DNA from: Agroathelia rolfsii
Lineage: Eukaryota > Basidiomycota > Agaricomycetes > Amylocorticiales > Amylocorticiaceae
Direction: 5' to 3'
Length of the DNA: 64,000 nucleotides
Assembly (NCBI GenBank): GCA_018343915.1
Contig: JABRWF010000004.1
Location: 2,542,001 to 2,606,000, forward strand
A model generated the notes under the pieces. The model was not told where the DNA came from and searched no databases. It worked only from the letters and a program-made list of their open reading frames with translations. Shown piece by piece: positions 5,771-25,802 of the stretch (the stretch's first letter is position 1; each line of letters starts with the position of its first letter). Made by a program: the position numbers and the translations under genes.

Positions 5771-6162
5771 CTAGATGTAGTCTCCAACCGCAACATGGAC
5801 AGCATTCTTCCATAGATTTGAGCTGTCGGGCGAGACGGTCTGGCGCCTCGAAAGCTCTGCTGGACGTAGGCGCATCAAAAGAAATAATTAGCCTGAATAT
5901 ATATTCCTACTAGGTAGTATTCGTGGAAAAGAGAAGGACATTTCACTTACCAAGTTGGATAGACGTATCTGCGCGACTGTTGGCATCTGAATCATCCCTG
6001 GCAAGTCCACGCGACTCAGGAAGTTCTGTAGGAAGGGAAACGTAAAAATAGATTACTAGCAGGCAACCAGGGTTTCCTGTACATACCTGATGCCATCAGT
6101 GGCAAAGCCAGGCCACATCCAGCCCATACAAGATAGACGCAGATAGTCATCGTAGTACGCAT
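5771..6162 (-). CDS. Small secreted W..VH-motif peptide precursor C
   Basis: Three exons (6162-6087, 6025-5951, 5859-5771) give 79 residues. The first about 23 residues form a signal peptide (MRTTMTICVYLVWAGCGLAL), so the product should enter the secretory pathway. The middle is polar. A dibasic Arg-Arg (LSRRQT) near residue 56 is a good Kex2-type cleavage site. The last 15 residues hold one copy of the shared motif, LWKNAVHVAV, before the stop. Relatives in this window carry 2, 3 and 9 copies of the motif ([L/I]-W-x-x-x-V-H-x-x-[V/I/L]). The first intron falls directly after the signal peptide, as in the three relatives. Likely role, by inference: precursor of a processed peptide. The single open frame across this locus is broken by introns, so gene callers may miss it. 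Confidence 0.7.
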
Positions 6163-7598
6163 GCTAATGGCAGACTGCTAAGAGAGAGTGTGTTCTCGCC
6201 TCTTCAGCCTCCCTAACTTGTGTCGACTGTCAATTATATTACAAAAATAATTAGCACACAGTAGAAGTGACGCTCTCAGACCAATCTAGACCATTTATGG
6301 AATTATAGAAGCAACGGACGAGTCGCAATTATTGCAAACTAGCGTATATCCGCTTGAACAGGTGTGGCGTTTTACTATATTATAAGCGCTACATGACCTT
6401 TAATGGCTTGAGTTGGATACGTCTGAAAAGGTGTTTTGAGAGGAGTGGAATTTTGAAACTGCATAAAGCCATCCTTGGCAGGAATGAATGAATGGATTGT
6501 GCACTACAAGTAATGAGGTAAGAGAGAGAGAGAGAGAGAGAGCGAAGCAATAGCTCGCCCGAATAGAAACGTCAATTACAGAATCGGGATAGCCGACGGC
6601 TAAAAAAACGTGACGATGAATTTGATGATTCTTTCACTGTTTACGTTGCCAATCGTGCTGATCGAGAAGGGTACTTATTACGGTCAAATGAAGCTTGGCT
6701 CAGGGATGGAGCGATGACGACTCCTCATGATGTCAAAATGCGAGTGCTGACTTAAGCATGCCCATTGCCCACGAAAAAAAAAAAAATGAATGAATGAATG
6801 AAAAGAGATTACAAGGACGGAAACACGCAAGCGGCACATGAGCTGCTGACTCATCCATCCATCCATATAAACATCAAAAGGGACATATGATGAGCGGAAT
6901 CCGCCAGATGAAGAAGTTGAAGTTGGATAGAGAAGAAGCAGCAGCAGCAAGTATAGATTTTGCCTAGCCATGATTGCATCCGATGTGATTCCATGATGCA
7001 GTATATGGATAGATAGGGACCAGCCTTTCCCTTATTTTTTCCGCGATGACGAGCACACTAAACGTTGGGTCTTTGCTGACGCTTCTGCGGTCGTCTGGTC
7101 AGACTGCTGTCAGGCTTGCGGGGGTTATCGGCAGTAGATGAGTGCATATAAGGCATCCATCAGATGGAGTGTGCCTCGACAATAATAGAACGTCGAATGA
7201 ATGAACCTGAGCAGATGATGGAAGCAGAGACTAGGAGAATGGACACTTGCTGAGCATGGCTAGTGTAAATGAGCAGGATGTGACGATGGAAGAGACAGAT
7301 GTGCTATAGTGACACAAGCAAATAGCACTGGTGGACGTCGTACATAATGGGTGGCGGTGGCAATGGGGGAAGCTTATCGGGTTGCGTGGCACGTGGACCG
7401 GAGAAGCAAGAGGGAGCATGTGTAGCCGGATGTCAAGATGTTCCCCTGGGCCGGGCTTGGACTGGGACCGTCCTCAGCCTCTTCTTCCCTCTCAGGCCTC
7501 AGACTCCGTCTTCTCCACCGGCTACTGCTTGCTGTTTTTCTCTACACAGCCGGCACTATCTTGCCTTCACCTCACCATCGTCGTCGTTGCTGTTGACC
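6163..7598. other. Intergenic with a GA microsatellite
   Basis: A divergent region between precursor C (minus) and the 7-TM gene (plus). It has a GA dinucleotide run near 6521-6541, an A run near 6776-6785 followed by short GAAT repeats, and no ORF with recognisable features. Confidence 0.55.
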
Positions 7599-8953
7599 AT
7601 GCCCATCTCTAATGACATTGCAGCCCTCATCGGCTTCGCATGCGAGTCCATCCTCTATGGCCTCTACATCCCTCTCTTTCTGCTTTGCATGCTCTACCTC
7701 ACCACTCGCCGTCGCACTCAAGTATACAACGTCCCCATGATTGTCGCCACAATTCTTCTCTTTCTCCTGTGTACTTGTCACTACTCACTCGAATTCAACC
7801 ATTTCTATACCTATCTTGTTCGTCTCTTTCTCTCTCACTTTCTCCAAGGCTGAACAATAACATAATCTTTACACCAACACTCTACCCTCTCCTACCTTCC
7901 CCACTTTCATGCATCTAGGAATCAACTGGCATCGTGAAGGGTTATGCCGATGAGAACCAGTATCTCTACGCAGCAGACGTTATTCTCTCCCTGACCGACT
8001 TCATCGGTGACCTCGTCTTGCTCTACCGCTGCTGGCTTGTTTGGGGTGGCAATTATTTCGTCTGCATCTTGCCATTTTTGACTGCTCTGGGTGGCTTCCG
8101 TACGTATCCATGCATCCCATCAAATAATCTTCCCCCCCCCCCCCTTCTAATTGATGATGATGCTAATCCTCCATCCTTTCCCCTTCTTTTCTTTCCATGC
8201 ATATGACTGCTATCACAAGTGTGCGCCATGTCTGGCCTGGGCATTCTGCGTAACACAAACCCCAACGCACCCGTCGCCCCGCCTGAGCTGGTCCCCCTTG
8301 GAACCGCTTCCTTCGCTCTGCCCCTCGTGACCAACTTCATCATTACCTTCCTCATCGTGGGAAGGATCTACTATATTGGCTACGGCACCAACCTCTTCCG
8401 CCGCCGCCGCCAAAACGACCCCGCGCTCGAAGGCGATCAGGCAGAGCAAGTTGCGCAGAGTACAGCACGCCATATCCAGGATGCGGCGAGTATCATGATT
8501 GAGAGCGGTGCGCTCTACCTGCTCGTCCAGTTCGTCTTCGTCGTCGCCTTCGGTATCGGCAATGTCTCTCAGGCGATTTTGGGCGTGATTGGCGCTCAGA
8601 TATATGTCAGTCCTCTTCCATCTTTTTTTGTTGCTGCTGCTTATACCTTGTCGTGGGAATACTGATGATTCCATCAAATTTATTCCTCATCACTTTGATA
8701 TGTCAAATAGGGCATCGCACCTACACTAATCTCATTCCGCGTCGGTCTCGGCGTCTCTGCCGAATACACCACTGCCGCCATGACGACAACAGGCATCTCG
8801 TGGGCCCGCCCGGCAACGACACGCACGGGGTTCGAGCGTACGAACCATACGTACGCCACCCGGCCGACGATGACGACTGATTATGGCACGACGGATGTCG
8901 AGTACGAGGATATCGAGCCCGCACGCCGCGAGAAACATGATAGCGCCAGCTAG
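7599..8953 (+). CDS. Seven-transmembrane protein of the fungal orphan type
   Basis: Four exons (7599-7817, 7919-8099, 8220-8605, 8711-8953) give 342 residues with consistent phases. I count seven hydrophobic segments. They start with ALIGFACESILYGLYIPLFL near residue 8, include the segment ending LLYRCWLVWGGNYFV and the segment VTNFIITFLIVGRIYYIG, and end near residue 280. A basic loop (RRRRQ) follows segment 5 and a polar, Tyr/Thr-rich cytosolic tail ends the protein. Proteins with this layout, including the YRCWLVW signature, are abundant in Agaricomycetes as uncharacterised membrane proteins; I know no function. The start is the first ATG before segment 1. Its link to the neighbouring secreted peptides is unknown; a receptor role would be speculation. 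Confidence 0.8.
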
Positions 8954-10237
8954 GCAAGTGGGAGTAGGAAAAGTATGGACGCAGTGAGCGTAAGTAGTAG
9001 GAAATAAGTGGGCAAGCTCGATCGGCCTCGAGGCCAAATCTTTTGCTCGCTTTGGCCTTGGTTGAAGAAGGAAAAACGAATGAATGAACATATCTCGCAT
9101 CTCACATAATCACTGTTCATCATTAGGAGAAAAGAGAAAGGGAACGGAAAAGGGACAATGTTTTGTCATGCACTCCTGACTTTTTGTTTTCTTGTTTTTG
9201 GTCTTTTTGATTCCCCTCGTCGCTCTTTTTCTTCTTCTCATCTTTGTTTTCGTCCATTTGCATGACCCTGCTTTACCTTTACTCGGATATGATCTCGTTC
9301 GTAATCATAATAACCAGCATATACAACACAACGTTTCTCTCTCTCTCTTCCCTCCCTCTCCTCTCCTCTTGACTGTTACGAAATACATAAAGACACAACA
9401 TACCCTGCCCTCTCCCCCACCCTTGCGCGCCATTATCTTTGTTACTTGTGCCATGAGCACCCAACAGTCCAGCCGTTTTTCATCTCTTGCGATCATCCTC
9501 TCTGTCTCTCTGTTCGTACCTGCTATATATTCTCTTTTTGTTGTCGTCATCCTTGGTTCACTCTTGGTACATCTGTCTCTATTTTGTTTCTGCCTGCTTC
9601 TGCCTCTGTGTCGCTTTTGTAAACTATTACATAGTACTATCTCATATGCTGTCAAAAGCACACTTATATAGTATTTTCTCTAGACTTTCAAGTTTTGTCC
9701 TGGGACATAAGGAATATCGGAGGGTACTGAATGGTAGTACCATGTCTCGGCGAGGTTGCTCGTATAGGTCTCGTCAATAATAGCACATACGTATTTTGTT
9801 CTGAAGGAATTCATGATACCGACTCACATTCGGAGTCGGAATCAAAATCCGGGGGAGAGGATGAAGCTTACTATGGAGTGTGCTTATTACGGAGAAACGG
9901 ACCGGTCTCTGCTGAACGTGCGACTGACGTCGTCGGCCCGACGATCTGTCGGCCTCGTTATTTTGAGGATTGTTCACACCATCAGGTTCAAGTTGGCACT
10001 ACTGGCAATTTCGCTTCAAAGTTCGAGCTATGTCCTGATGCATGATGCATGAGGGATTACTATCGGCCGGTTGAGTCGCGGTCGCAAGGCAAGAGTCTTC
10101 CTGGACTGGTAGCTAGACTCGTCGGACCACATATAATCGCTGGGCATACGTTTGATCTACAGTCTGATCCCAATTGCGAATCAGGCGGATCAAAGGCTCC
10201 TTTATATTCTAGGCCATGCTTTTAATTTCCTATTTCA
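8954..10237. other. Intergenic, T-rich 3' flank and no gene
   Basis: The plus strand is strongly T/CT-rich from about 9180 to 9660, which produces long but composition-driven open frames. The short open frame at 9731-10045 has no recognisable domain. It probably contains the 3' ends of the 7-TM gene (plus) and the NmrA-like gene (minus), which converge here. Confidence 0.55.
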
Positions 10238-11565
10238 CTAGTTAATTACGGATGACCAGTCTTCCGACTTGATGTACTCTTCCAGAGTCGTCATCTTTCC
10301 TTTGAGCCCGACCTGACATCAGCCAAACGTGTTAGCCAAGCTTACAACCGTCCAGAAACGCAAAGTGACCAAATCGACAAACAGACTTACGTCTTCTGGC
10401 CTGAGAACACCACCCGGCTTCCCACCGTCCCATCCAAACTCGGATGTATATGCTATCCCCTGTGCGACGTCCAGACCTGCGCCGTACGGAATGGCAGCTG
10501 CGCATTCCTCCAATGAAACTTGTTTGAAGCGCGCTCGCACGCCGACAATCTTGCCCCAGAGCGCGGCCATGTTCGCATGCGTATCTTCTGTGCCGGCGCC
10601 CAAGAGCGTTGCTCCGGCGGGAGTATCTAGGAGTGCGAGCACTAGCTTTCCGGTGTCCCCAGTCGCTTCGACGCGGGGAAAGATTGTGTGGGGGTCCGCG
10701 TTGGATCGGAACTCGTACACGCCGTCTTCGCACTGTGCAGGCAAAGACGACGTTTCATATTCACCATTGCCCATTAAATTGGGAACATTTTAAATAGAGA
10801 TACCTTGATAGGTCGAAAGACCGGCGCAAACTTCCAATTCGACATATACGACGCCAGCTGTAGATAAACCGTCTTCTCGGCCACCTCTGGGTGTGCAGAT
10901 TGGATGTACGTCTTGACGGCGGCCTTTGAATCAAAATGGTAGCAATGCGCGTACTTGCCGTTGGTGTTGTCCTTGACGGCGGGCAGGTCGGACCAGATAA
11001 AGCGTTCTAGTGTTGTATTCGCGATGGATGCGACGGCATCGACGAGATTCTTGCCATCTTGAACTTCAAGATCGAAGGTGCGTTGGAGTATTTGCAGGTT
11101 GTATGCGCTCGTTTCGTCGGAAGAGGAGACTGCAGCTTGGTGACCCCTCTCCGTCTCACGACGCATGATGCTCCAGAAATCAGTGACTCCAAATACAAAA
11201 TTCGCACCCTGTGTATAGAAGAAGAAGAAAAAGCTAAAAAGGGTTGAAAATTCTTTAGCTGGTCAACAGCTGCTTACCACAAAGGCTTTGCGCAAAGATT
11301 CAATATCGCCAAGATCAGCCTTGACGACTTCTATGCATTTGCTTTCTAGATATTTTGCTTCAGGCTTTGTAGGATCTCGGGTAACAGCGCGGATCTTCCA
11401 TTTCTTGCCGGTATTGTCCAAGAGCGCCTTAATTACAGAGCCGCCCTAGATGGAGATAAGACAAAGGTCAGTGTGGTCATTATTGGACAAATTTGTATGG
11501 CTGGCGCTCACTTGCACACCACTCGCTCCGAGAACAACAAAGACTTTTAACGTTTCTTCGCCCAT
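10238..11565 (-). CDS. NmrA-like NAD(P)-binding reductase 1
   Basis: Five exons (11565-11512, 11445-11278, 11208-10804, 10732-10391, 10312-10238) give 347 residues. The N-terminus is a Rossmann fold: VFVVLGASGVQGGSV (GxxGxxG, residues about 8-22), then RAVTRDP, where the Arg after strand beta-2 fits NADP(H) binding. It continues with GANFVFGVTDFW and the NmrA-type core (KNLVDAVASIANTTLERFIW). This is the atypical SDR / NmrA family, which includes redox-sensing regulators such as NmrA and HSCARG as well as isoflavone-reductase-like enzymes. Which role applies cannot be decided here. A close paralogue lies directly upstream on the same strand (12694-14009) with the same exon lengths for four of five exons, so the pair is a tandem duplication. 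Confidence 0.88.
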
Positions 11566-12693
11566 AGCATGTGATACTCAGTTAATCAATATAAAGCTGC
11601 TGATTTTTTGTGGCTCCTATCCCATACCATTACTCCTATATTTATATGCTGATGATATGACGTTTGTAGTCAGCGTAGTCAGCGTAAAGGGTATGATAAT
11701 ATATGCGCATGTGGTAAGAGCAAACCTTGATTATCAATTAAGCCGAAACCGGGATTAGTACTTCAGTATCTCAGTTGTCCCCGAGTCACAATATAATTTA
11801 CTATACACTTGACAATAGTGTTCTCTCGTGTTCTCTAACCATAGGCAATAATCGTGATGCTAGTATATATTACCCTCAACTTGAAGATCAATTGCCAACC
11901 TGAACAAATACCATTACTGATGCTAACTTGAACTTGGAGTCGAGATAAAAATCTGCAGGAGAGCAAACCAGTTTTATCAAACGCTGTAGTGGTCTGGCGC
12001 AGTCGTATTTACAATTTATTTCAACTAGGACCATGAGCTGGTCAGGTAAATTCGAAGCATCGGAGTAAGGTCAATAGGGAAAAGGTCACATGACTCATGG
12101 TCTATCTATACCTTCACAGCAGTCACATGTCGCTTGCATGTACTCCCATTTGACTGTGTACGACCATGTGTGACGAATGAAATTCTCTGTCGTTGATCTC
12201 AGCCTGGCCCAAAATCTCGCCTTGGCAGCTATAACATATATAATATTCCCATATGCTTTGAAGTACACGTACACCGCAATTTGCCCATGGTTCCATACTC
12301 AACACTAGTAAAGCTAGGAATATCAAGCCATGTTATACACTGAACGATATGCGGTGCATATAGATGTTCATGTGCCGTCACTTGGATTTAACGCATGATG
12401 GTGCCTGTGTCTCATCTACTACTCTGTAAGATACTCTTTCTCTTGATATATAAGCCCCTAGCGACTCTGTCATCCATCAATGGTGTGCAAACGATTAGCA
12501 CATAAGCACAGATGCACGAATTCCGAAGGAATCGTCTGTGGATCACAATGGAGATGGAGTTGGAACTAATTTGGATTCAATACTAAACGTGCAGAGGCCT
12601 AAAGTTCTCGTCCCGCTGGTACCTGGAAATCAATTTCTCGATAGACTCGGAAGGCTGTTTTCAAATTTAAGCCATGTCTGGAATTTTCTTTCA
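11566..12693. other. Intergenic between the tandem NmrA-like genes
   Basis: AT-rich, with no ORF carrying recognisable motifs. It holds the promoter of the downstream NmrA-like gene and the 3' flank of the upstream copy. Confidence 0.5.
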
Positions 12694-14009
12694 CTAATCA
12701 ATGACAGATGACCAATCTTCCGCCTTGAAATACTCCTCCAGAGTTGTCAACTTCCCTTCAAGCCCGACCTGTGTATAAATTAGCTACGACCCAAAACGCA
12801 AAACAAGTAAACGTACGTCTTTGGGCTTGATAACGCTATTTGCCTCCCGACCATTCCATCCAAACTCAGATATGTAAGCTACAGTTTCCGCGATATCGAT
12901 TCCCGCGCCATATGGAACTCTATCAACACATTCCTCTAGAGAGACCTGCTTGAAGCGTGCCTGTACACCCACGATATTGCCCCATAGTGCGGCCATTTCC
13001 GCGTAGGTATTTTCTGCGCCTGTACCCAAGAGTGTTGTGCCAGCGGGGGTATCCAGAAGTGCAAGTACCAGCTTCCCAGTATCTTTGTATGCGTCGACAC
13101 GAGGGAGGATTGAGTTAGGGTCTGCATTTAATCTAAACTCGTATGCCCCATCCTCGCACTAACAGCAAGGTTTTTATTATTATTACATTTCAGTATCAAA
13201 ACTAAACATTTTTATTATCGAAAATGCCGCACCTTGATGGGAAGATATATCGACGAAATCTTCCAGTTTGTCATGTACGATGACATCTGCAAATACACAG
13301 TCTTCTTGGCCACCTCCGGGTGTGCAGATTGGATATACGCCTTGACTACAGCTTTGGAATCAAAATGGTAAGAATGCACGTATTTTCCGTCGCTGTTCTC
13401 TTTGACAGAAGGCAGATCGGACCAAACGAAACGTTCCAACGTCGTATCCGCAATTGATGCAGCAGCATCAACAAGATTTTTGCCTTCCTGAACGTCTATA
13501 TCGAAGCAGCGCTGGAGTACTTGGAGGCCGTCTGTGTTTGAATTAGAGGTCGCAGCTTGGCCTGTTAGCTCGCGGCGCATAATGCTCCAAAAATCGGAGT
13601 TTGCGAATATGACATGTGCACCCTGTGTGGTGAGTATGTGTCAAAATACCGAGCAAGGTCAATGTTTCCCTCGGAATATGAATGTCTTCTTACCACGAAA
13701 GCCTTACGTAAGGATTCAATGTCTCCAAAGTCGCCCTGGACGACCTCTATGCCTTTGCTCCCAAGGTCTTTTGCTGCAGGCTTTGTGGGGTCTCGAGTAA
13801 CAGCGCGGATCCTCCACTCCTTGCTGGTATCAGCCAAGAGCTCTTCAATTATAGAGCCACCCTGAATGTATCACGAGCAATATATGAATCAGTACAGCCT
13901 GGTCATCTCTGCCAGTGAGTAAAATTATAGCCGAACTCACCTGTACACCAGTCGCTCCGAGAACAACGAATACTTTCGACACTTCTTTGTGCAGATACTC
14001 AGTAGTCAC
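12694..14009 (-). pseudogene. NmrA-like reductase 2, tandem paralogue without a visible start codon
   Basis: The exons match those of the neighbouring copy: first exon ending at 13941, then 13861-13694, 13622-13233, 13158-12817, 12768-12694. Exons 2, 4 and 5 have the same lengths as in copy 1; exon 3 is five codons shorter. All splice sites and phases are intact. The Rossmann motif VFVVLGATGVQGGS and the core (KNLVDAAASIADTTLERFVW) are conserved. However, the first exon has no in-frame ATG. The frame runs back from the Rossmann strand to a TGA at 14012-14010, and the position aligned with the ATG of copy 1 has lost it. Either the start codon was lost (recent pseudogene), or translation begins at CTG or in an upstream exon I cannot see. 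The upper coordinate is the limit of the open frame, not a proven start. Confidence 0.7.
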
Positions 14010-15185
14010 TCAACACAAAGCTGAAGAATCCTCGATTGCTCCTATTCTGCTGCATTCAATCAAGTATTTATGCAATGATGATAGTATTCGCTGACTACTA
14101 CCTCGGGTCTCTCTCTCTCTCTCTGAGTCGGGCCCCATAGTTACACCCAAGAACAATGATTACCAAGTGCGTTTACATGGAAATTGCGTCATATTTGTGT
14201 ATGTCATGGGGTACCTGATTACCAACCAAGCCGCAAGCAGGATCGCTTGCCTTGCATTAACAAGTTCGAATATTTTCAAGTGCAAGGGTGATCCTCGACA
14301 AAAGAAACCCAGGCCCGGTGTTAAACGTTGTCTTTCAAGCTGGATTATGTGTCTAAGACACTAGCAGGTTCAGCAGGCGGTTACCACCACCCCAACCCAT
14401 CTCATTTCTCACCCCTTACCCTGTCTACAACACCCATTGTACTCATGATTTACAATTTTACATTCCAATTGACACGAAATTTACCTTACATGATTCACAG
14501 TGCCCTTGGATAATCGCCGAATACACTACCTGTCGTGGTTGAGATGTAAGCTGACCAGCTTTCGTTGTTTGACCACTCCCTGCTCCCAAACTTGAAAATA
14601 CGATCGAGCTTGCTATGATTTATAGAGGACTTATAACGTCGAAGGCAATCCGTGATCGTGTTTGGGAATTGCTTTGGTGATATGCACGCTTCCATTCAGA
14701 ATTGAAGCCCAACAACCAACAACTTTTCAATAACAGCAATGATTCATTGAAATACCTTACTATCTCCGTTTGTCGCTCGCTATATCACTGCATTCGCCAT
14801 ACATCTTTCTAGTAGAGTGCATCTAGGTGGCATGAGGATGGAATCAACTGCTTGTGTATCATGCGACTGCCCTAGTTTTGGGGCCATGGATTGTGGATGT
14901 ATTTCTTTTCTTGTGTCCACATGAATCAACGGGTTTCGGCACTGGTGCTCTAAATGAAAGCTATTCCAACCAACACTGTATCAATCATTTTTCAATTGTT
15001 GTCATACGTCGGAGTAACAACAGAACGGCGGTGCAAGCTGAAGAGTTTGCATGTTTACATGCTATACTGTACACGAATCAAGAAATAAGTTAACGCCAAG
15101 AAATTAAAATCCTCCAAACTCTATCCTGCAGCCCGCGACAGCCTTCGCCCACCCGGCGTTGGTGGGAATTGCCGTGTTTCGTTCT
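14010..15185. other. Intergenic, no gene recognised
   Basis: A CT microsatellite (tctctctctctctct) lies near 14108-14123. No frame with recognisable domains and no W..VH motif was found. Confidence 0.5.
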
Positions 15186-15970
15186 TTAAAGCTCCCCATG
15201 AACATCAAGCCACGATCTGAGAACACCCCAATCGCGGCATCGGTGGACCATGTCGACACCATTGGCACCATGAGTGATTGTGCCATCTGGGTTGACACGT
15301 TCGACGGCTTCTTCGAGTGTCGTGTCAGCATTACACATGATACCTTGTTTGAGATAGCGAAGGCAGTGAACAAAGTGGTGCTGTGCGTTCTCGCCGCCTG
15401 GTGCTTTTGGATCTGCGTCATCACCATCCGCCTGTTTCAATTTTTTTACGATTGTCGCGCGAGCCCATTCAACGCGCATCACGTCTAGACAGTGTAGTTG
15501 ATGGTACATGGTGGGTATGAATGATTTATTTGTGGATCCCAACATGGTGAAGCCAGAACCGCGCTCGGGGAACAACGTGCCCCACTCGTCATCTGCCATA
15601 ATGGCAAAGTCGGGTGCAGCATCTTTGAGCTCGACACCGACCTCTGGTAGATAAAGTGGCAGTTGCGCAGGGTAGTCTTTGTCAATGTAACCTAAACATT
15701 AAAAGAGAATAAAACTGTTGAATGCTAGCGCAGTGAAAATAAGGAGATGAGCATACTGTATTGCTTCTCTGGCAGGGGTCTCAGCTGAGTAAGAAGGCTC
15801 GCATTTCTGACAGTTGACCCGACATTGAATGAAGTGAAAATGACCAGCGACAGCAAGACGAGTAGGTGAGTGGTTGTAAGGGTTATCAGACGAGCATTGG
15901 TGTCAGCAGCCTTGTCTTGTTGGGAGTTTCTGCTGTAGGGTGGCATTGAAGGAGATCGCAGGGCAGGCAT
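15186..15970 (-). CDS. UstYa-family (DUF3328) oxidase, complete
   Basis: Two exons (15970-15757, 15691-15186) give 239 residues. An uncleaved N-terminal membrane segment lies at about residues 28-50 (THLLVLLSLVIFTSFNVG), followed by a lumenal/extracellular domain. The family hallmark, two His-Cys motifs, is intact: HQLHC at about 135-139 and HHFVHC at about 176-181, followed by LRYLKQGIMCNADTTLE. Proteins of this family (UstYa/UstYb, PhomYc', AprY) catalyse oxidative cyclisation of ribosomal peptides in dikaritin biosynthesis; other members act on non-RiPP metabolites. The first ATG after a TATA-like box (16099-16105) is at 15970. A second at 15946 (MPPYSRNS) is also plausible and would remove eight residues. 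The gene sits between secreted W..VH precursors at 5.8 kb and 17.8 kb. Acting on those peptides is inference. Confidence 0.9.
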
Positions 15971-16098
15971 GAGAACAAAAGACAAGCCCAAAATGCTCAC
16001 ACGAATGGTATATGCTCAGCAGTAGTCAGTAGGTCCGTGTGTGAGTCGGGGGACAGTGTGATGCGCTAGAAGCCTACAGACACAGGAATTGTTGCGGC

Positions 16099-16105
16099 CC
16101 TTATA
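16099..16105 (-). promoter_or_regulatory. TATA-like box of the UstYa-family gene
   Basis: TATAAGG on the minus strand, about 130 bases upstream of the first ATG (15970). No other ATG lies between it and that codon on the minus strand. Confidence 0.4.
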
Positions 16106-16176
16106 ATGTTCTGTATCTGGTATCTGATTATCAACCGACAGTGCGGTGCTGCATCAACACGTGATGGACACCTGGT

Positions 16177-16440
16177 CTATGGACCTCGGATTTCTTCGGC
16201 CAGTATCTGCATTTCTGCTCGCTTGTTTTCGCAACGCTCGCAGCATTTGCTGGGGGCTGCACATCTTTGCACAGGATATTTGCCTTGCGTGAATAGCTGC
16301 CCGTGTCCAAACAGACTCGGGGTTAGGAGTACGTTTCCGCAAGCTTTCCCATCGTTCATCAAAACACATATCGCATCGTGTTTCATGGATATATGACAAG
16401 CCATCATTTCAGTTTGTCCTGAAGTTAAGGGGATGGCCAT
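16177..16440 (-). CDS. Hypothetical 87-residue Cys-rich protein
   Basis: An ATG-started frame on the same strand as the UstYa-like gene, ending about 200 bases upstream of that gene's first ATG. It encodes seven cysteines, four of them clustered near the C-terminus (RCAAPSKCCERC), which suggests metal binding or disulphides. There is no signal peptide and no family I recognise. It overlaps the region where the UstYa promoter should end, so it may be a chance frame. Confidence 0.25.
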   Translation of the reverse strand: MAIPLTSGQTEMMACHISMKHDAICVLMNDGKACGNVLLTPSLFGHGQLFTQGKYPVQRCAAPSKCCERCENKRAEMQILAEEIRGP

Positions 16441-17822
16441 CTGTCTGCCTGTCGCTCTGATTCAAACTTGTGTCCATACACACTAGAGATGATTACAACA
16501 CAACAATCATGGAGCATGATGAAGTATGTTCACTTAATCATGCCGAATTCTCCAATGTCACATCACCATCCAGTGCTGACCACGGAAGGTATTCGCTTTT
16601 TCTCGTTACGGATGGCCATTGCCCCTGGCTCATGACCAGGGCATAATCCTTTTGAGGCTTAGTTACGTGGACTGACAGGTGTAGCTGGAGTGTCACATAC
16701 CCCTTTGAGTACAAAGGTATCCCGATTTGACAACAATGATATGCTTGAACACATCTTGAGCATGCCTGCTTTTCTCCTGACCCTGATAAAAAAAAAAACA
16801 CCAACACTGCTATCTCTGAGCTCGAAATTTTAAGCTATACCAAGCTCAAGAGAATAATCCTGAAATCTGATAAAACACCCTTATTTCTCCGCGGAGCGCT
16901 CAAACGCTGTTCATACTCAGGCTCAAGCTTAGGTACTTGATACATACGTAGACACGAAATCATTTTCTTAATTAGATCTTCAAGTATTTGACAGCATATA
17001 TTCAAGGTGCCTGACCTCCTCCAGTCTTGTTGTAGTGCCTGATCATCAATACGCCATCCATCATCAATTATATCAAAGAAAGCTGAAATTCATCCGTCTA
17101 CCCCCGATGGTGAGGCGGCCCTTCGCGAGGGACGGGTCACATTACCATGATAGCATCGGATCACCTTTCCAACGACGTTTGCATGAGCACTTGGTTGCAT
17201 CCGTCATGGTTTTGATGAATAACTCGCTTAACACTGATAGCACCGTAATTTCCAACAACCCAATCCCCACTAGTGAAAAATGAATCACGGGAAAATGTCT
17301 TTCCCTTCAGGTTCTTAACTGGATTGCTCCGCGTGTGAATGCATATGCACTTGGTTTCGCGGCAAAAACCTGCTCCGCTATATTGCATGCATGTATTGTT
17401 GCCGTCTTGTGATGCGAACAAAACAAAGTGACTAAACGTCCAGGTTGCGCTTGATGGTTTTGATCGAACATAGACGCAGCAAAGTGTAGACGTATGCGCA
17501 TGAACAAAGTTAATATCGAATTATAAACAAGTGCAAAATATGTAAATAAACTCTACCTCCACCTAGTCGACAGTAAATACATGACAATGAGTAATAATAA
17601 TACGAGTGTATAAGTAAGCTTAGAGAAAGAAGGGTAGGGGCTTAAAAAGTTCAAAGCCCTATAGCCTGCAAATAGACCAATAGATATGATGAAGTCGATA
17701 AATAAACGAATAATTTAAGTGTAGAAAAGGCTATTAAAAATAAGAGAAATCCCTCAAGGTGATTCAAGAAGTGAGGGTTCCGAGAACATTCATCATGATA
17801 CCAACCATGCTGCGCAGTATGT

Positions 17823-18269
17823 TTAAGCATTTCCAGCAGTAGGCAATGGTGAATGATCAATGACGGCGTGAACAGCGTCATGCCAAAGGAGCCCGCCAAC
17901 GCTCCTATCAGTGGCGGTGGTGCTAGCAGTTGATGAAATTGATGATGACGACGTCGTCGCCGTCGCCGTCTGGCGAGCGATTAAATCATCAGGCTGCCTG
18001 GGACCCATCGGAGTAATCTTGTCGTTTGTCTGTGGTCCATTAATAAGCATATGAACATGGTCCTTCCATAGTTGTCCGCTTTGGACTGTTGCAGATGAAG
18101 AGGCGCTTTGGTCGACTGACGATATCATGAAAACAATTTAGAAATTAGTTTGCTCTAATGAGAATTGGATGGCAAATGGGAAAGGCTCACCAGGAAGAGC
18201 ATTAGAGGTGGCAATAGAAATGAATGCCACGAAGCCTAAGATCGAGAGTTTACGGAGTGAAAAGAGCAT
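17823..18269 (-). CDS. Small secreted W..VH-motif peptide precursor D
   Basis: Two exons (18269-18191, 18115-17823) give 123 residues. The signal peptide is hydrophobic (LGFVAFISIATSNALP, residues about 10-26), and the intron follows directly after it. Two copies of the shared motif lie about 70 residues apart: LWKDHVHMLI near residue 43 and LWHDAVHAVI near residue 106. The spacer is Thr/Ser-rich and low complexity (TATATTSSSSISSTAS) with single Arg residues (GPRQ, IARQ) before Gln. There are no cysteines. A TATA box lies about 105-110 bases upstream. Likely a secreted or processed peptide precursor related to the genes at 5.8, 22.9 and 25.4 kb. The exact cleavage sites cannot be read. Confidence 0.75.
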
Positions 18270-18372
18270 GTCGATAAATTATTTAGATAGTAGATGTTCT
18301 AAGTCGTAAAACGAGGACTGATGTTGAATATGAGTAGTGGATAGCAGTTGCTACGAATGCCAAACATCCAAC

Positions 18373-18380
18373 CCTTTATA
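18373..18380 (-). promoter_or_regulatory. TATA box of precursor D
   Basis: TATAAAGG on the minus strand, about 104-111 bases before the ATG at 18269. The distance is nearly the same as for the TATA box of precursor B. Confidence 0.55.
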
Positions 18381-19489
18381 CCTCTAGCAGAACAAGAGGG
18401 ATACGTGGATGATCCAGGGACATCGAAAAACCTGTCCGCCGCAGGCACTGCAACATTGGTTGGACAGAGAGACGGCTGCCAGTTCCGGGGCCTGGGGCCT
18501 GTGTCAAACGCCGTGAAATGGTGAAAGATGTGACACCCAATAGCGGTGATCGACGGAGCCGTTTTCCTTCTTCCGTTATGAGTATTTGCGAGAGAGTACA
18601 CTTGGAAATGATGAAATGCAATGCATGCCGACGTTTGGTGGGTATGGATCACCGTCTTGATGACATTAAATGATATATTATTTTTAACGGGGATTGTGGC
18701 TTGAGTGACACTTGCTATAATGTTCAGCATCGAGCAGTAGTACAGCCTCGCGCAGCCGTAAATCCAGCATTTACAGCCACCGTGTGATTCGGAGTGGAGT
18801 CACCATCCCTCTCTGGAACAGCATAAAAAGAACAATAATATTTGCTGGTGTAAGGAATCGACATGTCATTTTGCGGTGCAATCGGATCCATCATAAGTGA
18901 TTGACAATCAAACTAAGAGTCAGTGTGAATACCAGAAAATGCAGACAGGCCAAGGCATCAAATGCTGAAACATCTCTAGACCTAAATAGCTAGATAGAGC
19001 CAAATTGAATTTGACTCAGCAGATGTGTCTGATCAGCCCAAGCAAGCCAAGATATTAGTCTAACTTATGGCCTGCTTTCGCATATCGGATCCGAGGAGAG
19101 AAATCAACATTCTAGCAGCCAGATTCAGCACTGTTGCAATTCGGCAGAATACCTATGAAAACAGAAAACAGACGAATTCATCACATTTATCAAAAATCGA
19201 AAATTAGTGTAATGATGCCAGCAAAAAATTCAAAACAAAATCAAAAGATGAAAACACATATCATATTCAATATCCTTGTCTCTTGATAGTGACAGCGCCA
19301 GGTTCAGATCATGTAGCATCGCTTCAACATCATGATAATACATAACCGATGAATAGAAGAGATGAATATGGGTGTTTCGAAATTGTCTAATTATAAATAT
19401 ACATGTACTGTAAAGAAAAATAAATTTCCGGCATCAATTACAAGTTGATATCACAGACCGTAGTGGCTACTGAAGAGGAGCGCCTTATA
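18381..19489. other. Intergenic, no gene recognised
   Basis: This is the region downstream of the truncated UstYa-like frame, on its strand. I read it for the missing HxxHC-type catalytic motifs and found none. It is AT-rich. Confidence 0.5.
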
Positions 19490-19792
19490 TCAATAAATAT
19501 CTCCTTGATTTTTTCTCGGCAAATCTCTTGTATCTTTCCACAGTTCCGTGCGAGATTGCAATATGCGATAGAGCTCCTGAGTGTTGCGGGAGTTGATTGT
19601 AATGGCTGCAGCGTTGATGAAAAACAGGAGTGCCAAAACTGTGAAGATGGTGAAGCGAGAGACCCGCAGCTCAAGCCATGGGCGCTTAGAAGTGGTGGTA
19701 GTTTCGTTGACTGGTGAGCCATCATGCTCCAGCTCCTTGAAGAGGGCTTCAGTCTCGGTCTCGTCCTGGCTAATGGGCGTATATTGAGGCAT
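19490..19792 (-). pseudogene. UstYa-like N-terminal fragment (membrane segment only)
   Basis: A 100-residue frame from an ATG at 19792 (MPQYTPISQDETE). It has an acidic cytosolic head, one membrane segment at about residues 46-66 (RFTIFTVLALLFFINAAAI) and the linker RTELWKDTRDLPR, which in this family normally leads into the catalytic domain with two His-Cys motifs. Here the frame ends seven residues later (KNQGDIY, stop). No HxxHC motif is found downstream on this strand down to the next gene. This looks like a truncated UstYa-family gene. A short stand-alone membrane protein or a missed intron is less likely. Confidence 0.6.
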
Positions 19793-22700
19793 CTCGAGTC
19801 TGTAAACGTTCAATATGATTAATAGGTTTCATGTAAGTCGAGGTAGCATTTGCGAGCAAGTCGCTCCACTAACAGAGTTATATGGGTACTATTAACAGTA
19901 AATGGTGGTATGAGGCTTGGAGAACCAATGTGCAACCAAGTACTGTCTACTTGGTGGTAAGGAGAAGCGACGGTTCCGAGAAGCAAGGAGATGGCTTAAC
20001 TTCCTGTGCGGTCCAGACATATAAATAATAGTGCACAGGTCTTATGGTGATGATACAGCCCCGGCCAGATACTCAAGTTAGAAGTGTTACACTGTTGGCA
20101 ATGCCGCGGCGTTGCCAAAATTGATGACTGTGTGACATAATTGTGACGTGATGTCGGAAACAAAACACACTTGGAGAGCAAAAAGTATCACCGGCTTCAC
20201 CAGCAAGCCCGGCCCAGTAACGCGCTCATGTCGTGTTCATCATGCACTCCGCAGTTTTCCAGGGAGAAGCTGTTAGAATAGGCAATCCATGCCTCGATAG
20301 GAGTGACGGAGTCACAGTCATGCGGAGCGTGACTCTAGTATGTAGCTACGAATTTCTGTAGTAGTTACTTCATTCGTTTGTCCGCGTACTGCGTCCAAGT
20401 ACAAGGACAAGCGTAATGCTATAATGCTTTTGATATAAATCTGGCTGGCTCACTTTTCTCACAGAAGCCCCACCTTTTTTATTTCATTTTTATTTTTTAA
20501 TACCAATCACTTTACTTTGGGTGAAAGGATCGGTAAAAACAAGAGCCACGTGACCATATTTTTGCGGAGAAGTAGGTCACGTGATTATTTTTATTTTACC
20601 AAATCCTTTATCCAAAGTAGAGGGATTTGTCAAAGGATTGGTAAAAACGATTTTCTTTTGAAAACCCCAGAGTATCATGAGCGTCACTTAACCATCTGTT
20701 ACACTCTTGATTGGAATCGAACAATTTATCCCAGAGGGTCCTATTCTCATACTACTGCACACAAATTATCTCCGCTTGGACTCGTGGAGTTGAGCGTGAC
20801 TGAGCTGTTTTAGTTTTTCGCCTGAGTGGCATTGATGGTTAGATTGGCATTCCAACCTGTTTGGCTTTGACCACTGTTGACAATTAATTACAAGTTGCGT
20901 TTGAGTTCCGTTTTAATCACGATCACAGAGCACGCAGCAGCCTCTCAGCACAAGCAAAATCTGTATTCGAAAAAATAGCTCCTGTCTCACCCGGCATACG
21001 CCATCTCTATTTAATCATTTGCTACGGCTGGAATCTTCCAGCGCATCATACTAATTCATCATTTATCATAGGCAGGCGTGCTCGATGATCGGATCTATCA
21101 TGATGCGCATACTACACCATTCCGACATTTTTTTCGGTGAAATATACTAGGTCCGCACTGAAACTTTGGAAGATATTGGTCATTAAAATAAAAGCAAGGA
21201 CAGTAATGCTTTATAGCCACCTGTACAATATAGTCATCAGATGCATGAGGGAACCCTTGTAGTGACATATCTGTGGAAGTTATCAAGCAGTTATTATTTC
21301 TTTATACCATCACATCACGAGCTCCTAAAAGAATGAATTCACGAAGTGCTTCTTTATTTTCGTCGGAACAGATCGTATCCAGCTTTCAGTCCCACATCCT
21401 TTCTCGTCTCACCTAAAGCATTGTCTTATATTGGGAGAAACGCCGCGTTCCGTCGCTTCCGACCCTGGCGAGCTGAGACGGACCGTCCAAGCAGTCGAAA
21501 GTGGAGTTACAGTGCTCCACACAGGCCCAGAAGCATTGCGATTGTACTTATCGTTTCGCAATCGCATGCAACGTCTATATGGCGTTCAGGAACTCCAACA
21601 AACTACTAGTAAGTCATTTGTCTGCCTGCCAGTGTTTCAGGAACTAGAAAGGGTGATTAACTTCTGTTTTCACGCACTTTATTACCCCTTCTGTCGACAA
21701 CGGTTGAGCTATCTTGCCGACCATAGCTGAGTTAGGGCGGTATAGATCAAACTTTTAAGACATTTGATCCCGTACAACTCGAGGTCCATGCCCATAGTCC
21801 ACGTCTTTCTTGCTGCCGCTACATACTCACAACACATCAATGCAAATAGTAGCGCCCAGCCAACACTGCCGCCAGATCATGAAAACTGGCCCAAATGGAG
21901 AAACATGTCAGTGGGTTCCCTAGTTATGCCAAGCGTAGATCATATGTGCCACGATCGCGAGTAATCGCGAGTACTTCTTTAGCTTGGCTGAAGTACCAGC
22001 AGATATCACGTTAGGCAAGTACAACTTAGGGTTTTCCGAGTCAAGCCAACTGTGGCTATATCGAATCTGGGAAGAGCTTACGTAGGCCAACCATCCACGA
22101 TCGGTCTATCGCTACTTTCGCAAGTCCGAGAAGCTCGCAAGTGTCAAAGCTCGCATTGCGTCAACTGCAGTGCAAGCACAGCACCTATGACTCGGACACA
22201 GACTCAGACTGATTCTCATAGCCTACAATGTATTGCATCAAGGTGGGGCTAATGAGACGTAATCAATGATATATGATGCGTAGCAAAAGCTCACGATCAT
22301 AAAAAATCTGATTGCGTACTCGGAGTAGTCAGAGTATTGGGATTACTATCATGACCGTATTTGATCATCCGGTAGTTATATATGTCACCGGATTCATGTG
22401 GTTTGAGTTCTGCTACAAAGGGCGCCACATTGCTATCGGAAGAGAAGCCTCTAAGACCCAACACATTGCTGCCATTACATGAAATGTCTCATGAGCGATA
22501 GAAACCAGGGATGACTCGTTCCCAAGTTATCTTGCACGAATTCTGCCGACCGCGATTGGGGCAAAAATCATCACCCCGAGGCGGTGATGCTGATGGACGA
22601 TGATGCAAGACTGACTTTACCATGCTGTGACATTGCTATCCGGCGTGGGAGGAAGCATTCGTTGACGCAGGAGGAGTTGGTCCACTATAGCCGAGGTCCA

Positions 22701-22917
22701 TGGCCTTCTTCCACTATTCACTCGGGTAATCCCTATACGTCTTCCAGCTTCCATGTTTGTTCAGAGACACCCCTCTCGCAATGTGCTCTCACCGGACCCG
22801 CGAGCGTGAGCTTAAAAAGCACCTAGAACTAGCATGAGTTTACTATCGCCTCCTCCAGTAATCCCCCCCCCCCCATACAACAAAACGCTACCATATACTA
22901 TCCCCCTTTCCGACAAG
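19793..22917. other. Long intergenic region with one foldback repeat
   Basis: About 3.1 kb without a supportable gene. It contains foldback element copy 1 (listed separately), and only short frames with no recognisable motif between 21.3 and 22.3 kb. A C run lies near 22863-22874, just before precursor A. Confidence 0.5.
20504..20670 (+). repeat. Foldback (MITE-like) element, copy 1
   Basis: Two arms pair with each other: 20504-20539 (caatcactttactttgggtg...) and 20593-20630 (ttttaccaaatcctttatcc...). Inside, CCACGTGACC (20546-20555) faces GGTCACGTG (20575-20583), which extends the hairpin. The right part, to CCCCAGAGT at 20663-20671, matches the reverse complement of 39565-39648 closely. 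The element family is unknown and no transposase is present. Confidence 0.65.
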
Positions 22918-23520
22918 ATGTACGCGCCCGCTATCATCACTATTATTGCTATTGCCGCTTCCACAGTCTCGGCTGCACCCATCCAACCGCGTACGTTATT
23001 TTCATATGTCAGATCTCCTAAATCACCCGAACTAAAAACTCAAACAGAAATCAATGCTCGCGATAATGGTGCTATCTGGTCAACTGGTGTACATAAAACC
23101 ATCGACGAACGCGGGGAGGGCGCTATCTGGTCTACCGCTGTCCATGAATCCGTGGAAAAGCGTGGCACCGATGGCAAGCTTTGGGCATCTGAAGTGCATC
23201 AGACTGTAAACGAACGAGGAGACGGCGCGCTTTGGTCTGTAGACGTCCACAAAGTAGTGGAGGAGCGTGATAAAGGTGCTATCTGGTCTACTGGTGTTCA
23301 CCCGATCGTAGGGGAACGTGGTGAAGGCGCCATCTGGTCTGCTGACGTTCATCAAACGGTGGACAAACGCGGGGAAGGTGCCATCTGGTCTACAGGTGTT
23401 CACCCGACCGTAGAGGAACGTGGGGAGGGCGCTATCTGGTCCGTTGATGTTCACCAGACTGTGGACGAACGCGGGGAGGGTGCTATTTGGTCTGCCGACG
23501 TGCACCAGACAGTCGACTGA
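22918..23520 (+). CDS. Secreted nine-repeat W..VH peptide precursor A
   Basis: A signal peptide (MYAPAIITIIAIAASTVSAA) is followed by nine tandem 17-residue units and the stop. A representative unit is GEGAIWSTGVHPTVEER. Each unit has W-x-x-x-V-H and ends in Glu-Arg or Lys-Arg; the two KR ends are good Kex2 sites, the ER ends are less canonical. An open frame runs through, but 22991-23047 is a typical 57-nt intron (GTACGT...CAG, branch-like ctaaaa). Its position right after the signal peptide matches the intron in precursors B, C and D. Spliced, the product is 181 residues; unspliced, 200. The unit layout resembles Kex2-processed RiPP precursors of ascomycete dikaritins. There are no cysteines. 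Function is inferred, not shown. Confidence 0.85.
   Translation: MYAPAIITIIAIAASTVSAAPIQPRTLFSYVRSPKSPELKTQTEINARDNGAIWSTGVHKTIDERGEGAIWSTAVHESVEKRGTDGKLWASEVHQTVNERGDGALWSVDVHKVVEERDKGAIWSTGVHPIVGERGEGAIWSADVHQTVDKRGEGAIWSTGVHPTVEERGEGAIWSVDVHQTVDERGEGAIWSADVHQTVD
23062..23517 (+). repeat. Nine in-frame 51-bp tandem repeats coding W..VH units
   Basis: Unit starts are 23062, 23113, 23164 (54 bp), 23218, 23269, 23320, 23371, 23422 and 23473 (45 bp, truncated by the stop). Units 6 to 9 are the most alike and alternate between STGVH and SADVH/SVDVH versions, which suggests recent duplication of unit pairs. Units 3 and 4 are the most diverged (KLWASEVH, ALWSVDVH). Confidence 0.9.
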
Positions 23521-25291
23521 GACGGAGGAAACTGAACGCCTCTGTTCACTCAGCCGTTGTCACGAGCAAACCCATCCGATAAGCTATTTATCCAGAAGCG
23601 TCACTAATTATTTAAGCATATTCGCTGGAACTGTTAGTCTGGACCATAACGATATTCTGGAATTGATATCTTGGAATCCTCTTCTTCTTTCTTCTTTCTT
23701 CGCTTCTTCTATCTTGTTTTTTTTTTTATTCATTTCATTTTCGGTTAGTTTATTTGGGCTATCCCCGCTTCCGCCTTACAAATACCAAGTGAAACTTGTA
23801 GACTTTTAGTTGTAACCCTGTAACAAAACATTTAAGTATTTCTATATTTCTATTTCTTGTTGCAGTCTGGCAACTGGGGCAATATAGCATTAATGAAACA
23901 ATAACGACAACAATGAGACGGCTGCCAAAAGTAAGTAGATCCTTGACTCTAAGCGCCGATTCCGTTTTATCTCAGTCCGGTAGTGTCGGAGCTGCATCCT
24001 TAAATTTAGAACTCCGCTTCCGAGGTCGGGGCCATTCCTTCTCTTTCGGCTTGCTTAGCTCCAGCCGATCACGCGATCACGGTGTTGTGCCGTCCATGAC
24101 GAGGCCTGAGGCCTGAGAGTGCATGTATTCTGCTTCAGGCTACCCTTTGCACACTCCCCCTCAGAGCCTGATACTCAAGCGATGATGCTTACTATTCATA
24201 GATAAATGACGAGCTTACTCAGTGCATCAAAACTTATGCGACCCTTTCAATGACATTATTTTTGTGATATGTCTCCGCTGCCCGGACGCATAAACACACC
24301 TTTGTCATCACTACTTCTCTGATCGTACAACTGTACACACTACGGACGAAATGAATATTGTTGAAGTGCTTCCCGTTCTATGTTGCCTTGTCAAGAAAAA
24401 GGTCGTGGCTTCAAGAGACGCCAGCAGTTCTTTTGACTGTATCAGCTTACTACCACAGCAAGCATTCCTTGGAGCTGAGAGATAGCATTACAAAAAAAAA
24501 AAAACTGAAAGCACAGCTCCCATATTTATGACTCATACGATGTGCTGTGCTTTTTCTCTTTCTCCACTTTCTCAAGGTGTTTTGATTGCTGGTTACTGGA
24601 CACACCGTGATGGGCTTGCCTTTCTTTGGGATTCACACATCTGCGACCATCGGAAAGCCAGAGTTTTCACAGTTCGTTTGGCGTTGTTGGGTCAGTATCT
24701 TTCTTTCTCTCCTTGATTTAATTAATTTTTATCATCAGTAATCAGCAGGAGTGCGCATCTAGCTATAACGGAAATTTATCTGGGACAAACTCGCGATCTT
24801 CAAGCGAGCTCTGATGCAGGTCTAGTAAACGGGCACACTTGACCTAGACATATATTCTACAATGACACACAAGCGATTGCGAGGCAAGCGAGTCAGAAGT
24901 TCATGCAACTGCCTGGGCATCAATATGGATCAATCATGGCTGACATAGCCACACGCCATATTTTGATGGCGCACGGTTCCGCCGGCTTTTCTCATCACTC
25001 CAGCTATACTGACCCGTTGTGCAGTCACCACAACCAACTGTGGTATCCAGCTTGGCGAGATTCATTATACCTTTGTGCCTGTCATAATTGACCTGATACA
25101 CAACAAGTTTAGAACAGTAATGCTGTGTTCCCCGTGGGCTGAATGACTCACCCGCTCAGCACCCGCGCAAGACGTAATTTCGTGACTGCTCAGGAGTGAC
25201 GGGTGACTATGGATACTATAGCTCATCGTACCGCGGGTGACTCAAACAAAGAGTTACAGCCATGGTACCTCAAACACTGAATCCACGAGGC
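23521..25291. other. Intergenic between precursors A and B, no gene recognised
   Basis: A T-rich 3' flank of precursor A (T run near 23718-23727), then mixed sequence with an A run near 24491-24503. No W..VH motif, UstYa motif or other domain was found in either strand. Confidence 0.5.
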
Positions 25292-25298
25292 TATAAAG
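25292..25298 (+). promoter_or_regulatory. TATA box of precursor B
   Basis: TATAAAG, 97-103 bases upstream of the ATG at 25395. The same motif and distance occur upstream of precursor D. Confidence 0.55.
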
Positions 25299-25394
25299 TC
25301 TCGTCGTGGTATTCGGCTCGCAGCATTATCCCATTCACGACCAACAGATAACGAATACCTTGCCTCATTAGAACGAACCCACTTAACAATCAAA

Positions 25395-25802
25395 ATGGTG
25401 TCCAAGACATTCTACTTGCTTCTTACGCTAGGGTCTGTAGCCCTTGTCGCACATTCTGCGCCACTTCCTGTAGAGGGTATGTCGCACGACGTGTTATCGG
25501 ATCATCCAATGTATTCCGGCTTATCTCTTCCTGCACAAAAAGGTGCTCTCCATACTCAGGTTTCCCGGGACGGAGACCTTTGGAAAGATGCTGTTCACAT
25601 GACCATTGAATCACGAAATACAGAAGCCGAGGCCTCTACTGAGGCTTCGCAAGTTGGAGCACTCTGGAAAGATGCTGTTCACGTGACTCTTAAATCTCGT
25701 GATGGAGGTCAGTTCTGTCGATCTTGAACAACATAATAAAGAAGCTCAGTCCCTTTGACCACAGAGCTTTGGCACGATGCAGTCCATCAAACGCTATCAT
25801 AA
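25395..25802 (+). CDS. Small secreted W..VH-motif peptide precursor B
   Basis: Three exons (25395-25476, 25543-25707, 25765-25802) give 94 residues. The signal peptide is FYLLLTLGSVALVAHSAPLP. The first intron follows directly after it. Three copies of the motif follow: LWKDAVHMTI, LWKDAVHVTL and, in the last exon, LWHDAVHQTLS before the stop. Each is preceded by a short acidic or Gly linker, and two by Ser-Arg-Asp-Gly (SRDGDLW, SRDGELW). This makes Ser-Arg a likely processing point instead of Lys-Arg. Without the second intron the frame would end at 25727 and lose the third motif copy; splicing restores it, which supports the model. Cysteines are absent. Confidence 0.8.

Follow-up and report, generated by a model that had tools for sequence, protein, structure and literature searches.

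We analyzed a window of 64,000 nucleotides from the basidiomycete Agroathelia rolfsii (C4:2542001-2606000 in an assembly of 8 contigs and 37.7 Mb), in which four small genes, named A to D here, encode secreted-type proteins with the core motif [LI]W...VH..[VIL] in common and lie around a gene for a UstYa-family (DUF3328) oxidase. Judging from gene anatomy, we give a probability of about 0.52 to the reading that this is a dikaritin-like basidiomycete locus for a ribosomally synthesized and post-translationally modified peptide (RiPP), whose Trp/His core would be released at single Arg residues and oxidized by UstYa. The cluster is present on both haplotypes, and the Trp, Val, and His residues of the core are kept better than residues outside the motif. 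In the pathway that we propose, the four related precursors, with 1-9 cores each, would enter the secretory pathway by way of their hydrophobic N-termini, and Kex2-type proteases would cut next to single Arg residues. UstYa, anchored in the membrane, would then act on the core inside the lumen; the conserved Trp and/or His would be the likeliest sites of oxidation, and a side-chain cross-link over the spacing of 4-5 residues is one possible outcome. A neighboring cytochrome P450 may tailor the product, and the locus would thereby yield a small set of related modified peptides. With its defined core, the locus allows a direct test for UstYa modification of peptides in mushrooms and points to the residues that would be modified; it also suggests that precursors of this type may escape surveys that apply the usual dibasic filter.

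Motif genes and oxidase of the cluster

Gene models were built with a small splice-aware script and then checked by eye on the sequence (Table 1). All 15 motifs were recovered in the four small genes in which the initial annotation had placed them, and the gene ends agree. One motif lies at 5786-5815 and two at 17859-17888 and 18042-18071 (all on the minus strand), while the plus strand has nine within 23074-23514 and three within 25578-25796. Searched in a DNA form that also permitted F or M at the first position, the motif occurred 15 times in the window, compared with a mean of 0.16 and a largest value of 2 in 100 dinucleotide shuffles. Genome-wide (37.7 Mb), 142 matches were found versus 131 for the reversed control. 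This rules out a motif that is widespread across the genome, and because isolated matches therefore look like chance, only clusters of the motif were counted. Among six isolated matches that were inspected, three fell in short frames that had none of the family's features, two (C3:1243066 and C3:1252987) in long frames that we take to be CHAT-like, and one (C8:1842452) in a frame that is presumably rhodanese/molybdopterin-like. In two further cases (C6:1342490/1343265 and C2:4898588/4902043), isolated matches form a close pair in which the motif starts with F or M.

Each of the genes A-D begins with a hydrophobic, signal-peptide-like first exon that is directly followed by a phase-1 intron. 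For gene B this intron was deduced from the second haplotype (contig C5), as the frame in the window stays open without splicing there but the C5 allele is one base shorter and out of frame unless spliced. The third core of gene B sits in a short last exon of its own. In a crude test for a hydrophobic stretch, the N-termini of all four genes passed, as did 75-325 of 2000 shuffled N-termini (4-16%). The proteins had been described as unalike outside the motif. At the sequence level this is true, but the common position and phase of the intron mark the genes as relatives; on their exon structure, the four are diverged relatives of one precursor gene.

The oxidase gene is complete and located among the four motif genes, as initially proposed, at distances of 1.9-9.4 kb from them. 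Its product scored 70.2 bits with PF11807 (DUF3328), for which the Pfam gathering score is 25 bits, and has both HXXHC motifs (HQLHC at residues 135-139 and HFVHC at 177-181). The H and C columns of these motifs were invariant in all 20 rows of an alignment consisting of the query and 19 sequences chosen from 55 matches. Two HXXHC motifs have been suggested as a mark of RiPP-related family members (PMC12048977). The literature describes DUF3328/UstY enzymes as dicopper oxidases, which use O2 and cross-link aromatic side chains; halogenation and hydroxylation are further reactions of the family (PMC12186524, PMC12874468). One membrane helix was predicted for the window UstYa; residues 33-63 are confident within an otherwise poor AlphaFold model (pLDDT 61), and no relative with a solved structure was found by sequence. 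Within the genome only its allele is close to it, and four other places match weakly. Across the assembly, PF11807 gave at least 36 exon-level matches, corresponding to at least about 29 genes over both haplotypes. Named relatives with E below 1e-20 come from what we take to be agaricomycete genera, and one weak named match (E 0.0015) comes from Stictis, an ascomycete.

Haplotypes, selection, and a second locus

Contigs C4 and C5 appear to represent the two haplotypes of a single chromosome, assembled in opposite orientation and strongly diverged: for seven pairs of pattern matches located at 0.38-2.57 Mb on C4, the coordinates add up with those of their C5 partners to 4.31-4.34 Mb. On C5 the cluster is found at 1.754-1.776 Mb with a DNA identity of 81-88% in the main aligned blocks (divergence across the cluster 12-19%). 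All four motif genes, UstYa, the P450, and the first of two NmrA-like genes are collinear on both haplotypes.

The ratio of nonsynonymous to synonymous changes (dN/dS) between alleles was 0.06 for UstYa, 0.21 for A, 0.22 for B (on its complete 94 residues), 0.28 for C, and 0.28 for D, whose C5 allele encodes 79 amino acids (aa). It was also determined for a 100-aa protein of the cluster (19490-19792; 0.09) and for E2, a gene of the second locus described below (0.46). Over genes A, B, C, D, and E2, the haplotypes differ at 1 of 51 W/V/H residues, 12 of 119 other motif residues, and 62 of 390 residues outside the motif. The difference between W/V/H and the residues outside is significant (Fisher p 0.005), in line with the earlier remark that selection appears to hold the W...V-H core; for the rest of the motif versus outside, p was 0.14.

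Each haplotype has one further cluster of L/I-type motifs, at C2:995-997 kb and C8:2.494 Mb. This second locus comprises two genes, E1 and E2, with a signal-peptide-like start, a phase-1 intron, and the core LWKDHVHxSI. Their last exon completes the E of E[LI]W...VHQxIS, a layout also seen in the last exon of gene B. When the E2 protein was used as a query, it returned E1 and the C8 copies, plus a weak match to gene B (E 0.007); genes A, C, and D and the C5 allele of B were not recovered. Because of this match together with the common exon layout, gene B and the E genes are considered homologous. The C2 copy of E1 is intact, and the one on C8 (L064 5980-6310) is broken, with an in-frame stop and the loss of one motif Trp and His. 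The locus is flanked by genes for a short-chain dehydrogenase/reductase, an old-yellow-enzyme type oxidoreductase, and an alpha/beta hydrolase, as well as a gene that is presumably lipase-like. The E2 search also returned one unexplained match on C1 (E 0.57).

Known systems and rival explanations

With dikaritins (ustiloxins, phomopsins, asperipin-2a, victorin, and possibly epichloecyclins), the cluster has in common a multi-core precursor and a UstYa-family enzyme close by, and perhaps a signal peptide (here a signal-peptide-like start); a DUF3328 gene in the cluster, one criterion for dikaritins, is found here. Another criterion, repeated cores between dibasic Kex2 sites, is where the locus departs from them. 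In gene A, an Arg stands 5 or 6 residues upstream of each of the nine cores and is part of KR in only two of the nine. Gene B has an Arg four residues ahead of two of its three cores and no dibasic border, gene C has no dibasic site at all, and in gene D an RR is located about ten residues ahead of the single core. Whereas dikaritin precursors have dibasic borders, we find mostly single Arg, and there are four diverged precursor genes. Moreover, the confirmed dikaritin products described are from ascomycetes (PMC9233826, PMC12048977), whereas this locus is from a basidiomycete. On its anatomy, the cluster would work like a dikaritin locus; we do not class it as one, because the borders are mostly not dibasic and the product is a prediction from genes. 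The dikaritin-type interpretation of the initial annotation is supported in part: a UstYa with both HXXHC motifs lies among four precursor-like genes on both haplotypes, and the W/V/H residues are well kept, but the near absence of dibasic borders weakens it.

The cluster proteins also resemble the KEX2-processed repeat proteins (KEPs) of Basidiomycota in being of secreted type, with repeats and basic borders. A formal rule for KEPs demands three or more repeats, each 8 aa or longer, bounded by KR/KK/RK/RR sites (Umemura 2020, PMC7329392); the cluster genes do not conform to it. In the same work, Trp-containing repeats define KEP type P-3, of which four of seven are near DUF3328 genes; its hosts are partly agaricomycete (Fonsecaea, Cladophialophora, Galerina, Psilocybe, and Coprinellus). 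By description, which is all that was compared, W is accompanied by P in P-3. When KEPs of C. cinerea were expressed in P. pastoris, the products appeared to be cut after single Arg (Vogt 2022, PMC9769878), which makes a single-Arg release plausible here by analogy. In Pleurotus, 16 UstYa-like genes are reported as probably involved in dikaritin production (PMC8893723). With basidiomycete repeat proteins near DUF3328 genes on record, the kind of locus is already known or expected; it is a variant in its Trp/His core, in having four diverged precursor genes with single-Arg borders, and in having distant family members. The six core strings were not found in the open-licence literature, nor was any proven basidiomycete UstYa RiPP, the latter judged mostly by titles and abstract starts.

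Several results weigh against a UstYa-modified product. Dibasic Kex2 borders are almost absent, and the cores lack the Tyr that is cross-linked in ustiloxin, phomopsin, and asperipin, offering Trp and His instead. UstYa relatives occur in many agaricomycetes (34-48% identity), and relatives of the precursors were not found: neither a search with the gene A protein nor one with a 7-row precursor alignment, in which the gene B row retained the first intron (116 aa), returned anything at E<=10, the sensitivity of both being low for such short repeats. Viral contigs yielded nothing either. Gene B was put to Pfam as a misspliced version of 89 aa. The linkage of motif proteins to UstYa genes fails at the second locus, where the nearest match in an exon-wise PF11807 search is at 646 kb (C2) or 806 kb (C8); missing linkage to UstYa is among the results that the initial annotation named as refuting its reading. 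The second of the two NmrA-like genes has a separate copy on the window haplotype only, i.e. the copy number differs inside the cluster. Finally, W/V/H and the remaining motif residues did not differ significantly (p 0.11), and one of the nine cores of gene A on C5 reads AH for VH (Ala for Val).

The co-location itself only hints at a real link; the four cluster genes count as one event. Altogether, 1.1% of the assembly lies no farther than 10 kb from a UstYa match and 1.9% no farther than 20 kb, so that the chance of at least one of two independent loci being UstYa-linked is 0.021 and 0.038, respectively. To this was added a detector for signal-peptide-like starts with a repeated 8-mer peptide (7/8 or more identical) in the next 650 bases. 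Its sensitivity is low: in the cluster it picked up A and B but missed C and D, the hit in B arising from repeated DNA in a different reading frame, and at the second locus it missed both E1 and E2. Four UstYa regions (68.2 kb) gave four hits in three regions (A, B, C4:394287-395070, and C3:4155289-4155539), and control regions of 148.9 kb, from which the second locus was excluded, gave none. As a further point against the link, 14 more UstYa regions (63.6 kb in all; most with flanks of 1.5 kb on either side, one 10.6 kb long) contained no repeat protein at this cut; such short flanks test little, since no motif gene of the cluster is within 1.5 kb of UstYa. The probability that all hits fall into UstYa regions by chance is 0.010 when the first four regions are taken, 0.014 for the five regions that measure 9 kb or more (three of five hit), and 0.049 over the full set of 18; leaving out the window changes these values to 0.049, 0.068, and 0.17. 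Loosening the cut to 6/8 gave two additional hits in the initial four UstYa regions, one each at the second locus and in the 14 further regions, and none in the controls; these additional hits look spurious. The association of UstYa loci with repeat proteins in this genome is statistically weak.

These results leave room for linear, at most trimmed, secreted peptides with a role in signaling or defence, next to a UstYa that acts on another substrate. This explanation, which we regard as possible though doubtful, would account for a second locus without UstYa nearby and would fit the KEP peptides of Coprinopsis, Lentinula, and Pleurotus, reported as linear and minimally modified (PMC9769878), as well as the small share of basidiomycete KEPs near DUF3328 genes (103 of 1680, or 6.1%, versus 30.1% in ascomycetes; Umemura 2020, PMC7329392). 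It does not explain why UstYa lies amid four precursor-like genes on both haplotypes (chance 0.02-0.04), nor the presence of repeat proteins at two further UstYa loci in this genome. That the proteins act whole, as effector-, adhesin-, or wall-like small secreted proteins in which W...VH is a structural or binding repeat, appears unlikely: gene A consists of nine similar units of 17-18 aa with an Arg at each border, and change is faster outside the core, although single-Arg rather than dibasic borders and genes with only one or two cores (C, D, E1, and E2) look less like polyproteins. It is very improbable that UstYa, the P450, and the NmrA-like proteins form a small-molecule pathway with the motif genes as bystanders. 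DUF3328 enzymes also perform halogenation and hydroxylation (PMC12186524), and NmrA and P450 are generic; against this, no gene of the size of a polyketide synthase or nonribosomal peptide synthetase was seen among the models from 0.2 to 29 kb (only some of which were put to Pfam), and one NmrA-like gene is missing from the other haplotype.

Going beyond the dikaritin-like locus that we favor, we tentatively suggest, with more doubt than confidence, that basidiomycetes may have a class of UstYa-modified peptides of their own, cut at single Arg and missed by dibasic-site surveys, of which this locus would be a Trp/His-core member with one UstYa serving the four cluster genes and, in trans, the two distant ones. 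If this is true, the low share of basidiomycete KEPs near UstYa is partly an artefact of the dibasic filter.

Neighboring genes and other UstYa loci

The P450 and both NmrA-like reductases that had been reported to flank the motif genes are real (PF00067 and PF05368), with the reservation that one NmrA-like gene lacks a separate counterpart on the other haplotype; the P450 is a possible tailoring enzyme. Neither a tyrosinase nor a methyltransferase above the cut-off was detected among the cluster models put to Pfam.

Table 1. Gene models in and around the motif gene cluster (window coordinates)
Feature	Position	Strand	Details
Cytochrome P450	1842-4029	-	PF00067, 147 bits; exon ends approximate, 3' end probably past 1842
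Gene D	5771-6162	-	79 aa; 3 exons (6087-6162, 5951-6025, 5771-5859); one core, LWKNAVHVAV
Multi-helix membrane protein model	7599-8953		Between gene D and NmrA-like protein 1; no Pfam family above cut-off
NmrA-like protein 1	10238-11565	-	PF05368, 138 bits; on both haplotypes
NmrA-like protein 2	12694-14138	-	PF05368, 139 bits; no separate counterpart on other haplotype
UstYa-family oxidase	15186-15970	-	239 aa; 2 exons (15757-15970, 15186-15691); PF11807
Gene C	17823-18269	-	123 aa; 2 exons (18191-18269, 17823-18115); cores LWKDHVHMLI, LWHDAVHAVI
100-aa protein	19490-19792	-	Single exon; one hydrophobic segment; ELWKD tail
Gene A	22918-23520	+	181 aa; exons 22918-22990, 23048-23520; nine cores in 17-18-aa units
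Gene B	25395-25802	+	94 aa; exons 25395-25476, 25543-25707, 25765-25802; three cores

The 100-aa protein was considered as a recognizable UstYa remnant and rejected, having no profile match to UstYa and a low dN/dS. It has no Pfam family, and its matches in the genome were limited to itself and its own allele. The low dN/dS between haplotypes suggests a working gene, kept on both.

Some of the other UstYa loci encode further secreted-type proteins. The detector hit at C4:394287-395070 is a KYGYTVTV repeat protein with a signal-peptide-like start, in which TKYGYTVTVENKASLDFAF occurs several times, and it adjoins a tandem UstYa array at C4:381-392 kb. Two related short signal-peptide starts are located near this array, at C4:386014 and 387719. 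This region looks like a basidiomycete dikaritin-type locus with a Tyr core. At C5:3869301-3872500, other UstYa matches are accompanied by two signal-peptide-like starts that closely resemble those near the C4 array, and the detector found no repeat there. The hit at C3:4155289-4155539, beside UstYa matches, is a secreted-type protein of 61 aa with two copies of H[LI]DSIAAR and an intron after the signal peptide.

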